59,381 bases of DNA. It comes from Ignisphaera sp. GTDB taxonomy: Archaea; Thermoproteota; Thermoprotei_A; Sulfolobales; Ignisphaeraceae. Position numbers and translations under genes: made by a program. A model generated the notes under the pieces. The model saw nothing but the letters and a program-made list of their open reading frames with translations, was not told where the DNA came from and did no database searches. Shown one piece after another: positions 35,827-42,960 of this stretch; the stretch's first letter is position 1; every line of letters begins with the position of its first letter. The stretch is from the NCBI GenBank assembly GCA_020833345.1, contig JAJHQM010000003.1, positions 1 through 59,381 on the forward strand. The letters run 5' to 3'.

Positions 35827-36840
35827 TTAATAAAGATGTGCTGAACTGATATCTACGTGACATCTCTTTAACCCTTCCTTTTGCGAAAATAGTATTAGCT
35901 CTATGCTCATATTGTCTAGAATAGAAAGTGCTATTGCCTTACGGAAATCTTCTAATGTATTAATCTTTTTCCCATTAACTTCAATTATAATGTCTCCTAC
36001 AGATATATTACAATTCTTAAACAACAGCTTATTGGCTATGCCCATAATCATTAGACCATTTTCTAATTTAAGTTTCTTTAAAGCATTGGGAGATTGCAGA
36101 AGCTTTAATCCAAGCTTTATATGTACTACTTTACCTAACTTCCTTAGTATTAGGTAACTAAGAAAGATTCTTGATGATGGTAGTGCGAGTGAAAACTCAT
36201 TATATGAGAATGACCTTGAAAGAAGCATACCGACGACATTACTGTCAATGTTAAGTAATGGTGCACCACTCATTCCGGGTATTGTAGGCATGTTTAACAA
36301 CATTAGCCCTTCAATTTCTCTATTATTGATTATAGACCTAACCTCTAGGCCACTAACTATTCCCATTGTTATGAAGTGCCTTAAAATACCTTGTGCTATC
36401 CCACTTGAAAATACTATAGCTCCCTCACTAATTAATGTGTCCTCAATTTTAAGAGGTCTCCTACTTACATCAACGCCTATAAACATTAAATCGTTATCTT
36501 CATCTACAGAAATTACTGTACCTTTATAAATATCCCCGTCTAATGATATAATACACAGCCTATCTTTAAAATTGCTAAGAATGTGAGAAACTGTAATAAT
36601 AACATCTTTATCAATGTAAAAACCTGTTGCAATGCGCTCTTCTGTTACGCTTACATCACTATTAATACAGTTTCCTTCATTTACAACAATTGCTACAATG
36701 GACTCTATGACATTGCTAATGACTCTCCTCAAGTTATTTTCAATAAGTTTAAAAACATTTTCTGCATTACCTAGCACATTAATCACGCTCCTCATAATAA
36801 CCCATTTATAATACAGTAACTTATCAATACTAGCCCACAT
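35827..36840 (-). CDS. Trypsin-like serine protease with PDZ domain (divergent HtrA)
   Basis: TGFYIDKDVIITVSHILSNF, IPGMSGAPLLN, GDIIIEVNGKKINTLEDFRKAI. Confidence 0.75.
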   Translation of the reverse strand: MWASIDKLLYYKWVIMRSVINVLGNAENVFKLIENNLRRVISNVIESIVAIVVNEGNCINSDVSVTEERIATGFYIDKDVIITVSHILSNFKDRLCIISLDGDIYKGTVISVDEDNDLMFIGVDVSRRPLKIEDTLISEGAIVFSSGIAQGILRHFITMGIVSGLEVRSIINNREIEGLMLLNMPTIPGMSGAPLLNIDSNVVGMLLSRSFSYNEFSLALPSSRIFLSYLILRKLGKVVHIKLGLKLLQSPNALKKLKLENGLMIMGIANKLLFKNCNISVGDIIIEVNGKKINTLEDFRKAIALSILDNMSIELILFSQKEGLKRCHVDISSAHLY

Positions 36841-37366: not shown

Positions 37367-38320
37367 TTAAAGCTCTTCTACAACTATGGGCACCTTTAAC
37401 CTCATTAATGATCTTCCTCGGTATATTTCTAACTCCACGTAACCTTTATCAATGCTTTCTTCTATAGCCAGCCTAAGGTCTTTAACACTTCTAACTCTCC
37501 TTTCATTGGCCTTAACTATCACATCACCTTCTCTAATTTTAACTCTGTGTGCAGGTGATCCTGGGACTACTCTTACAACCATAACACCCTCGCTAACTGT
37601 TGAACCTATGGCATAAGCTACTTGAGGAGTTACCGGAGCCACATAGACTCCTATCCAGGCTCTAACGGGTCTTCCAAACAATTTAAGCATTTCTATAAAT
37701 CTCTTAGCACTATTTATTGGTATAGCGAATCCTATTCCTTGAGCATACGGAATTATAGCTGTTGTTATACCTACTACTTTGCCCTCAGCGTTTACTAATG
37801 GTCCTCCACTGTTACCAGGATTTATAGCTGCGTCTGTTTGAATTAAGTCCTCTAATATGACATTTTCACCTATTATTGTTCTTCCAACAGCACTTACAAC
37901 ACCTAAGGTCACTGAGGGGCCTGGAAGACCTAAAGGAGATCCTATAGCTAAGACTATTTCACCTACATTAATACTATCAGAATCTCCAAGTGATGCAGCT
38001 TTAATATTTCTATCAATTCTCAATAGAGCTAAGTCTCGATAAGGATCTAAAGCTATTACTTCAGCTTCCTCAGAAACCCCATCATGATATAGGATGATGA
38101 CCCTTGCAGCACCCCTAACCACGTGTGCATTTGTTATGATGAGGCCAGGCTCTATAATAAATCCTGATCCTACACCTGTAAGCTCTTTGTATCCAAACAA
38201 TGAAAGTACGTGTGGAACTTCTGTAATTATTGTTACAACAGATTCCTTAATCTCACTAACTATTTTTGCTATATCTGTACTCAACTTGTAGATTAAGCTG
38301 TTTACCACAAGCTGCACCAA
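37367..38320 (-). CDS. HtrA/DegP-like serine protease with PDZ domain
   Basis: GSGFIIEPGLIITNAHVV, DLALLRI, DAAINPGNSGGPLVNAEGKVVGI, GDVIVKANERRVRSVKDL. Confidence 0.95.
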   Translation of the reverse strand: MVQLVVNSLIYKLSTDIAKIVSEIKESVVTIITEVPHVLSLFGYKELTGVGSGFIIEPGLIITNAHVVRGAARVIILYHDGVSEEAEVIALDPYRDLALLRIDRNIKAASLGDSDSINVGEIVLAIGSPLGLPGPSVTLGVVSAVGRTIIGENVILEDLIQTDAAINPGNSGGPLVNAEGKVVGITTAIIPYAQGIGFAIPINSAKRFIEMLKLFGRPVRAWIGVYVAPVTPQVAYAIGSTVSEGVMVVRVVPGSPAHRVKIREGDVIVKANERRVRSVKDLRLAIEESIDKGYVELEIYRGRSLMRLKVPIVVEEL

Positions 38321-40380: not shown

Positions 40381-42176
40381 AAATAGTTTCCTGTAAGCTT
40401 TTGATACCTATCTAAATAGCTACCTGGCTTATTTATTCTAGGTCTACCTATATCTGGATCCCTTCTAACTGTTACATTAACATCTTTCAGAAATTCATTA
40501 AATGCTCTTGAGACACTTGTTGGGGCTTTTCCAAACCCCTTCACTCCAGGCTCGCCTAAAAAAACCATTAGCCTGTCAATAGCATAGTCTATTAGAAGTA
40601 TATTGTGATCCACAACAAATATTGGTACTTTTCTTAGTCTTGCAATTCTTCTAATAGCCCTAGCTACAGATAGCTGGTCTTCAACATCTATGTGTGATGA
40701 TGGTTCGTCTAGGAGATACACATCTGCATCCTTTATTAGCGATAGAACTATGTAGAGCTTTTGTAATTCTCCACCGCTAAGCGTTTTTGTATTCTTTTTA
40801 AGTATTCTCTCTACGCCTAATCTCTTAACTATTTCATCATAAAGCCAGCTATTTTCATTAAGTGCATCTTTATTTACTTCTTTTATACATTCTTCTACTG
40901 TTTCGCATTTTAGTGTATCTATACTCAAATACTGTGGTTTATAGCTTACAGTAAGTAAGGGTGATGTTACATAACCATTATCAGGTTTTATTTCTCCTGC
41001 TAATATTCTAATAAATGTGGTTTTGCCTATTCCATTAGGCCCTATAATACCTACTACCTCACCTTTCTTTACCTTACCTTCCTCAACAACAAGTTCAAAT
41101 GTATCTAGTCTCTTAAATATTTGACTCCACGATATTAATTCAACTTCACTTAGTGTTATAACCTCATCTCTTACGTCATGAAGCTTGAATACTATTGCTT
41201 CATCTCTAATCTTCATGTTTTCTGCAGGTAAAAACCCCTTCAAATAATTATCTATTCCTGCTTTTGCAGTATAAGGACTTGAGAAATGGCCATAAACACC
41301 TGGAACTCCATAAACTATTACCACGAGGTCTGCTACATAGTCTAAAAACATTATGTCGTGGTCTACTACAAACATGTAGCTTTGCTTAGGCCTTAGTTCA
41401 TCTAAGGCACGTAATAGGTTTAGCCTCTCTCTAATGTCTAGATAGGCTGTTGGTTCATCAAATATGTATGCCTCAGCATCGCGTTCTAAGGCTATTGCAT
41501 TAGCTAGTTTTTGTAGTTCTCCACCACTAAGTGTTCTCACATCTTTTGAAAGCATGTTGTCCATTTTAAGGAGTTCTGCAATCTCTTTGAGAATGCCTCT
41601 TTCGTCGTACTTCTTAAGCCACTCCTTTACACTGCCGTACCTTAAATACTGTCTTAAAGACTCTATGTACTGTATCTTGTGTATGACTTTAAGCTTACCG
41701 CTATAGAGCCTTTCGAAGTACTCATATAGTTGTGTACCCCGAAATCTTGAAACAACCTCCTCCCTACTCACCTGCCTCTCTACAATCCCAAAGTTGGGTA
41801 TTAGAAGCCCTGACAGAATCTTCATAGCAGTTGTCTTTCCAGCACCATTTGGTCCTAAAATGCCTATAATCTTATCCTTAACCGGTACAGGAAGACCATA
41901 TAGCTTGAATTCATTTATTCCAAATCTATGCACAAGTTTTTTCTCAACTTCGCTTGGCAAATTAACTATTCGTATTGCTTTATATGGACACTTTTTAATA
42001 CATATGCCACAAGCTATACACTTATCTTCATAAATAATAGGTTTTCCTTGCTTAGCTTCACTTAACTCTATGGCCTTGTAAGGCTTGGTTTTATTCACAG
42101 GACAAAAACGTACACAAGGGATTCCACATTTATTAGGTATGCAAAGATCATAATCTATTACAGCAACTCTCGTCAT
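40371..42176 (-). CDS. abce1: Ribosome recycling ATPase ABCE1/Rli1
   Basis: N-terminal 2x[4Fe-4S] cysteines, two ABC domains GPNGAGKTTAMKIL and GPNGIGKTTFIRIL, two LSGGELQKL signatures. Confidence 0.98.
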   Translation of the reverse strand: MTRVAVIDYDLCIPNKCGIPCVRFCPVNKTKPYKAIELSEAKQGKPIIYEDKCIACGICIKKCPYKAIRIVNLPSEVEKKLVHRFGINEFKLYGLPVPVKDKIIGILGPNGAGKTTAMKILSGLLIPNFGIVERQVSREEVVSRFRGTQLYEYFERLYSGKLKVIHKIQYIESLRQYLRYGSVKEWLKKYDERGILKEIAELLKMDNMLSKDVRTLSGGELQKLANAIALERDAEAYIFDEPTAYLDIRERLNLLRALDELRPKQSYMFVVDHDIMFLDYVADLVVIVYGVPGVYGHFSSPYTAKAGIDNYLKGFLPAENMKIRDEAIVFKLHDVRDEVITLSEVELISWSQIFKRLDTFELVVEEGKVKKGEVVGIIGPNGIGKTTFIRILAGEIKPDNGYVTSPLLTVSYKPQYLSIDTLKCETVEECIKEVNKDALNENSWLYDEIVKRLGVERILKKNTKTLSGGELQKLYIVLSLIKDADVYLLDEPSSHIDVEDQLSVARAIRRIARLRKVPIFVVDHNILLIDYAIDRLMVFLGEPGVKGFGKAPTSVSRAFNEFLKDVNVTVRRDPDIGRPRINKPGSYLDRYQKLTGNYFYN

Positions 42177-42230
42177 TTAGAAGTACCCTGAAAAAACTTC
42201 TTATTTTAATTGCGTGGTCAATTTAGGGTT

Positions 42231-42308
42231 TTACCATTCTTCCTCCTCCCACTCCTCTTCCTCCTCCCACCATTCTTCCTCTTCTTCCCACTCTTCTTCA
42301 AGCATCAT
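42231..42308 (-). CDS. 25-codon Glu/Trp-only micro-ORF upstream of ABCE1
   Basis: ATG ATG CTT then MMLEEEWEEEEEWWEEEEEWEEEEW* ; stop 54 nt before the ABCE1 start, same strand. Confidence 0.5.
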   Translation of the reverse strand: MMLEEEWEEEEEWWEEEEEWEEEEW

Positions 42309-42426
42309 TTCACTAACACCTCACGCACTCATACTTTGCTAAGAATAAAAGCATTTCTCTAAAACCCTTGATGCGGAGTCAATAATAGTAATTATAAATT
42401 ACCTTACATAAGTTTTACAAAAGTAG

Positions 42427-42960
42427 CTATGAGAAAAACACGTCACTCGATCCACTTATGCCCAATAGCATAACATCATTACAGTACCTGCTTAACATAG
42501 GTAACAGAGCTTCAATAATTTTACAGCCATGAATATAGTTAGTGAGGTCATTCTGATTTATCAAGTCGCAACCAGCATTGCTGAATTCTCGTGCGATGAT
42601 TCTACTAATACTATTGATTTTGCCTTCAGTTAGCTCTGCATCAATATGTGCAACTGTTATAGCGTAGTAACTTTCTTTACAATAGCTATTTAGAGTATTT
42701 GTTACGGTTTTTATTTGCCTCACTCCAAAAAGTCTTAAAAGGATTTCTATCTCTTTATACTTAGCCACATTATTGCCTTCTCTGAATGCCTTAACCGTCT
42801 TAATATATGCTACAATACCACTTCGTAGGGGAATTGAAGTACAGAGCTTTATTGATGTACAGGTGCACTTCTCTTCCATACATTCAAATGCGTTATATAC
42901 TATTTTGCAGGGGTCGTAATATGCTAAACAGGCATCCTTATGTAAAATCGCTAAGAACAA
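42427..42960 (-). CDS. cgi121: KEOPS complex subunit Cgi121-like
   Basis: VAYIKTVKAFREGNNVAKYKEIEILLRLFGVRQIKTV resembles Cgi121 core; ITVAHID. Confidence 0.65.
   Translation of the reverse strand: MFLAILHKDACLAYYDPCKIVYNAFECMEEKCTCTSIKLCTSIPLRSGIVAYIKTVKAFREGNNVAKYKEIEILLRLFGVRQIKTVTNTLNSYCKESYYAITVAHIDAELTEGKINSISRIIAREFSNAGCDLINQNDLTNYIHGCKIIEALLPMLSRYCNDVMLLGISGSSDVFFS

Follow-up and report, generated by a model that had tools for sequence, protein, structure and literature searches.

DSS1/Sem1 (Rpn15) is a very small, disordered, acidic protein with spaced Trp and Phe residues; it is Asp-rich and has a C-terminal helix. TnaC is a Trp-containing regulatory leader peptide. In eukaryotes, eIF3j (Hcr1) works alongside ABCE1 during recycling and alongside eIF1A during initiation (PMC2824034, PMC9618717, PMC10175282). 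Recycling is assisted by eIF3j, an interaction partner of ABCE1 (PMC9618717, PMC7196836), both proteins are present in the 40S post-splitting complex (PMC10175282) and occur together in PDB entry 6zvj, and eIF3j co-operates with eIF1A (PMC2824034). In its acidic N-terminal motif (NTA), Trp52 fills a hydrophobic pocket of eIF3b that is flanked by lysines (PMC2824034). Finally, stretches of Asp and Glu (D/E runs) located close to the N-terminus cause abortive translation in bacteria and yeast, and the proteome of Pyrococcus furiosus shows no avoidance of such N-terminal runs (PMC9718836).

The archaeal microprotein described here, EW, was compared with each of these systems. Like the NTA of eIF3j, it is short, highly acidic and Trp-centred (compare DNWDDDDDE in human eIF3j), and by analogy it resembles a concatenated, free-standing form of an NTA-type motif; unlike eIF3j, it is a separate protein of 25–60 residues that lacks the eIF3j C-terminal part. 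Both EW and DSS1/Sem1 are tiny, disordered, acidic proteins with spaced aromatic residues, as judged for EW from its composition and a predicted pLDDT below 30, but EW is built of Glu and Trp only and has no proteasome or repair genes as linked neighbours in the window. With TnaC-type leaders EW shares a short, Trp-containing ORF upstream of a gene; in contrast to them, it is not consistently in cis, its spacing and frame vary, and what is conserved is its repeated Glu/Trp pattern. Its D/E run lies within about the first 30–40 residues, as in the destabilising runs defined in PMC9718836. Those runs, however, are generic parts of larger ORFs and are avoided by proteomes, whereas EW is a conserved whole gene that is often unlinked to any downstream target.

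The EW gene and its surroundings in Ignisphaera

The window, a 59,381-nucleotide stretch of Ignisphaera sp. DNA (contig JAJHQM010000003.1), contains the EW ORF on the minus strand. The encoded 25-residue peptide is composed of 17 Glu, 5 Trp, 2 Met and 1 Leu, and its stop codon lies 54 nt before the ABCE1 ATG at 42176. The preliminary description of a Glu/Trp-only ORF of 25 codons at this distance from ABCE1 was thus exact, with “Glu/Trp-only” very nearly so. A pattern scan found this to be the single ORF of its type in the 1.3-Mb genome, and its occurrence is far beyond chance. The features of the locus are listed in Table 1.

Table 1 Features of the EW–ABCE1 region and other genes noted in the window
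Feature	Position	Strand	Basis and remarks
EW microprotein ORF, MMLEEEWEEEEEWWEEEEEWEEEEW followed by a stop codon	42231..42308	(-)	Sequence and ORF list; conserved in each of the ten same-genus genomes and also outside the genus
Shine-Dalgarno (SD) motif GAGGTG	42317..42322	(-)	Sequence; 8 nt 5' of the first ATG
Promoter-like BRE/TATA box AGAGAAATGCTTTTATT	42344..42360	(-)	Sequence; putative function
T6 tract	42191..42196	(-)	Between the EW ORF and ABCE1; T-run enrichment after EW stops
ABCE1, ribosome-splitting twin ATPase, 601 aa	40371..42176	(-)	PDB matches to archaeal and eukaryotic ABCE1
Upstream neighbour, 177-aa protein	42427..42960	(-)	Without Pfam match; Cgi121-like by eye
HtrA-type serine-protease-like gene, one of two close together	35827-36840	(-)	By eye
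HtrA-type serine-protease-like gene, the other of the two	37367-38320	(-)	By eye

The core of the SD motif, GGTG, is kept in nine of the ten genus sequences. In four close relatives the BRE/TATA-like box is identical or nearly so, and in the remaining ones it is degenerate; its distance from the EW ORF would be sensible for a promoter. The T6 tract is a probable U-tract terminator, of the archaeal type, of the EW transcript. Runs of at least five T occur within 60 nt of the EW stop at 99 of 135 loci, as against 26.5 in shuffled sequences, an enrichment that is indicative since related loci were counted separately. Because a T run usually follows the EW stop, EW is usually its own transcription unit. 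For ABCE1, a match is present in all 60 relatives. The 177-aa upstream neighbour has a syntenic equivalent in Desulfurococcaceae, a 160-aa protein gene convergent with EW, which likewise has no Pfam match.

Selection on the encoded peptide

Variation among ten species of the genus was analysed by codon position. Within the aligned Glu/Trp codons, none of the 20 first positions and none of the 20 second positions vary, while 14 of the 20 third positions do; the confinement of all 14 variable columns to codon position 3 has a probability of about 2e-7. Length differences between the ten species amount to whole Glu codons only. Nucleotide identity within the genus is 0.89 in the EW ORF, compared with 0.50 upstream of it and 0.43 in the spacer to ABCE1. 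Judged from these substitution patterns, EW is a real gene whose amino-acid sequence is under strong purifying selection.

The ORF is a low-complexity GAR/TGG repeat, which might also be expected of a purine-tract element that acts at the DNA or RNA level and not as a protein. We consider such an element vanishingly improbable: variation in the aligned codons is synonymous only, the indels are codon-sized, the SD motif and stop codon are conserved, and Asp, Phe and Leu substitutions are found in the EW sequences of other families. The EW RNA shows no significant fold (z = 0.5) and a search of Rfam with it returned no family. The codon-position test refutes the element, and the empty Rfam search agrees.

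Distribution and sequence character of the EW family

A search of 84,980 bacterial and archaeal species with a strict Glu/Trp pattern retrieved 64 stretches, all of them archaeal by title, from Ignisphaera, Desulfurococcales, Bathyarchaeota, Nezhaarchaeota, Methanomethylicota, Thermococcus and Nanopusillus. Most are free-standing ORFs, many with an SD motif, that end in EEEW directly before the stop codon. With a looser D/E pattern, EW was found in 89 of 398 Thermoproteota genomes and 61 of 115 Thermococci (two control hits in each case), as well as in 4 of 141 genomes of the Nanoarchaeota class. Besides all ten genomes of the same genus, almost all of those of the same family have it. The Sulfolobaceae versions, VFEEDWEEEFDEFEEEEDWEEEEFEEEEW and LMEEDWEDIEEEDWEDIEEEDWEEDEW, are missed by the strict pattern and were seen by reading around ABCE1. 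The pattern scan found no EW in families f4, f5, f6 and f18, the last presumably the ammonia-oxidising archaea, judging by how large and how dense this family is in the sample (names for numbered families being assigned from context). These families seem to lack EW, and recycling in general can thus do without it.

EW peptides are usually 25–60 residues long, consist of repeated W-E(3-6)-W units and usually terminate in Trp. The C-terminal residue is Trp in 134 of 136 non-identical segments, most of which were found with a pattern that includes Trp before the stop; the exceptions seen end in F, WE, EF or EEE. Each of the 96 distinct segments has Trp flanked by E/D runs, the composition for which the segments were chosen. 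With a net charge of about -18 and three to seven Trp, EW is an extremely acidic and intrinsically disordered protein. The versions in Thermococcus and in family f26 have an extra basic N-terminus (MQPPKKKKK and MSRRKTPPK, respectively). In one genome, the repeat forms the C-terminal tail of two paralogous proteins of about 100 residues (L185:3004-3378 (-) and L186:2683-3033 (+)), neither of which matches Pfam or NCBIfam.

Searches of Pfam (four peptides, E up to 0.1) and NCBIfam with EW peptides gave no match, apart from a sub-threshold chance match of the Thermococcus version to TOPRIM_C (E = 0.059). PDB sequence searches with EW and with the Thermococcus and Nanoarchaeota versions returned nothing significant, and our literature search found no paper describing the peptide. 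Loss of the E/W pattern in close relatives had been named as grounds for rejecting the ORF; instead, the pattern is conserved across Thermoproteota, Thermococci and a few Nanoarchaeota. By these sequence comparisons, EW constitutes an ancient archaeal microprotein family without a Pfam or NCBIfam entry, one that is apparently undescribed and unclassified so far.

Genomic context

In most lineages of Thermoproteota, Bathyarchaeia, Nezhaarchaeia and Methanomethylicia among them, the EW gene is found a short distance upstream of ABCE1. At 62 loci with both genes, ABCE1 is downstream of EW on the same strand at a distance of 43-508 nt, and the relation between the two reading frames is mixed; Sulfolobaceae add further linked loci, at about 40-55 nt. 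Upstream of EW, the neighbours vary with the class. Thermoproteia have an eS17/MoaD/Cgi121-like block, Bathyarchaeia an asparaginase-like gene, and Nezhaarchaeia and Methanomethylicia a THUMP protein. Since these other neighbours change, the EW–ABCE1 pair is what persists, and the antiquity of the adjacency supports a functional tie to ABCE1. An RPB9-like zinc ribbon of about 100 residues sometimes lies between the two genes (L061, L065, L109, L114, L118, L122 and others); an RPB9-like zinc-ribbon protein also adjoins ABCE1 in Desulfurococcaceae.

Other arrangements occur as well. Desulfurococcaceae have EW in convergent orientation to the 160-aa gene beside eS17, and ABCE1 is further off; here EW is inverted (convergent or divergent to its neighbours) and the peptide is equally conserved. 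Thermoproteaceae-like genomes and the Thermococcus genomes examined carry EW away from ABCE1. In all four Nanoarchaeota loci found (L220-L223), EW (MDWEDLK...WEEEEW) follows aIF2-beta, DUF424 and NMD3 and is located exactly 36 nt upstream of aIF1A.

Two further observations concern the surroundings of the gene. EW is near moeA in many Thermococcus genomes (L208-L219, L254-L258) and in f8, a family of the same order as the window (L052-L053). At five loci (L020, L022, L025, L026, L027), a conserved sequence, GCCGTCACCACTCATCAT, is found between EW and ABCE1 on the ABCE1 strand; its reverse complement, ATGATGAGTGGTGACGGC, has a C/D-box-like start and may represent an sRNA gene, although the four loci searched had no Rfam match at the gathering threshold.

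Leader peptide, by-product or diffusible protein

The preliminary description had offered two readings of the ORF, a leader peptide that controls ABCE1 and a free-standing acidic/aromatic microprotein, and had proposed a synteny comparison upstream of abce1. That comparison revealed the EW–ABCE1 adjacency across most Thermoproteota lineages. The free-standing microprotein is strongly supported by codon-level selection, by the wide spread of EW and by conserved unlinked copies, and the leader is unsupported as a general function. A cis-acting leader would use its acidic, Trp-containing nascent chain to destabilise or stall ribosomes, and in this way sense recycling capacity and control ABCE1. 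Consistent with this are the same-strand position of EW ahead of ABCE1 in most Thermoproteota, the T-tract between the two genes at most loci, and the destabilisation of bacterial and yeast ribosomes by 10E-type runs near the N-terminus (PMC9718836). However, instead of keeping EW always upstream of ABCE1 and co-transcribed with it, several lineages have it unlinked, inverted or next to other genes such as aIF1A, and there the peptide is equally conserved. Neither spacing nor frame is conserved, no structured leader RNA is found, the zinc-ribbon gene may intervene, the T-tract usually follows the EW stop, EW also exists as a C-terminal tail of larger proteins (L185, L186), and P. furiosus does not avoid N-terminal D/E runs (PMC9718836). 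We therefore regard such a leader as improbable, and on linkage, spacing, frame and RNA fold we reject it as the general function. Conservation in trans positions means that the product and not the position is under selection, which excludes a general cis-leader function; where EW is inverted or unlinked, it must act in trans. That EW is a real trans-acting microprotein is nearly certain, and a secondary cis effect is possible in genomes where it is linked to ABCE1. A related proposal makes the mRNA the effector: translating the acidic run would leave ribosomes aborted or stalled in trans, and these would serve as a decoy substrate that tunes ABCE1, Pelota or peptidyl-tRNA hydrolase, with the peptide as a by-product. 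In most versions the D/E-rich segment does start no later than residue 4, and a 25-residue peptide would still be inside the exit tunnel, where D/E runs abort translation in bacteria and yeast. But this proposal has no need of the strict retention of Trp or of longer versions with different N-termini, and the C-terminal tail fusions are hard to explain by it; we consider it very unlikely. More generally, ribosome destabilisation does not explain the conservation of Trp or the unlinked copies of EW.

The main rival to an eIF3j-like reading is that EW is a general acidic/aromatic glue or nucleic-acid mimic, working in the manner of DSS1/Sem1 or of a polyanion chaperone that acts on basic proteins; its main role would then lie outside recycling, and its linkage to ABCE1 would be inherited synteny. 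We hold this rival to be rather unlikely. The charge and Trp content of EW do resemble those of disordered acidic/aromatic hubs, and SEM1 is a weak, non-significant hit (E = 9.1) of a phmmer search with the acidic motif of human eIF3j; a basic N-terminus has been added in Thermococcus and f26, and one genome carries extra EW copies as C-terminal tails. Yet EW peptides have no Pfam match to the DSS1/Sem1 family model, EW stays next to ABCE1 from class to class as its other neighbours change, and the adjacency to aIF1A appears independently.

A possible role between recycling and initiation

The gene neighbours of EW point at a step between recycling and initiation. The retention of ABCE1 as a neighbour while others change, together with the independent adjacency to aIF1A, makes a role for EW in translation recycling or initiation fairly probable; counted against recycling are the copies unlinked to ABCE1 in Thermococcus and Thermoproteaceae-like genomes and the seeming absence of EW from f4, f5, f6 and f18. 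Rather than a leader peptide, EW is probably a small disordered protein that partners the translation machinery. As the best explanation overall, we tentatively propose that this disordered, acidic/aromatic protein is a ligand of the ABCE1-30S recycling/initiation machinery. As a soluble ligand, EW would insert its Trp side chains into hydrophobic pockets on ABCE1 and/or the 30S post-splitting complex, and its Glu runs would hold basic surfaces there. It might thereby modulate the residence or ATPase of ABCE1 and hand the 30S subunit over to aIF1A/aIF2. This action would parallel the presumed role of the acidic Trp-centred motif of eIF3j/Hcr1 in ABCE1-40S post-splitting and 43S complexes; that EW acts in an eIF3j-like mode is conceivable, if rather doubtful.

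The likeness to eIF3j concerns mode of action: EW may work like the eIF3j N-terminus, and homology is not claimed. Four EW peptides gave no match to Pfam eIF3_subunit at E up to 0.1, and the C-terminal half of the 258-aa eIF3j is absent from EW, so that membership of the eIF3j family is unsupported. The carrier of the known NTA pocket, eIF3b, is not expected in these archaea. AlphaFold2 models of two natural in-frame EW-ABCE1 read-through chains, from two species, showed no docking and left EW disordered, with a pLDDT below 30; for a low-complexity ligand, such models weigh neither for nor against binding.

Significance

The find is larger than first claimed, being a whole microprotein family and not one ORF: a conserved archaeal gene family of essentially two amino acids, apparently unannotated. 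At 25-60 codons, EW is easily missed by gene callers and low-complexity filters. Its existence raises the question of how ribosomes make a peptide that would be expected to destabilise them. The adjacency to ABCE1 and the separate adjacency to aIF1A point to an unrecognised component of archaeal recycling/initiation. It is possible, though the less likely case, that EW is an ancient unrecognised archaeal translation factor, binding to ABCE1, to the 30S post-splitting complex or to both, and linking recycling with initiation; with similar reserve, it might be seen as the archaeal functional counterpart, possibly the forerunner, of the eIF3j acidic Trp motif. EW thus bears on the origin of eukaryotic eIF3j-assisted recycling.
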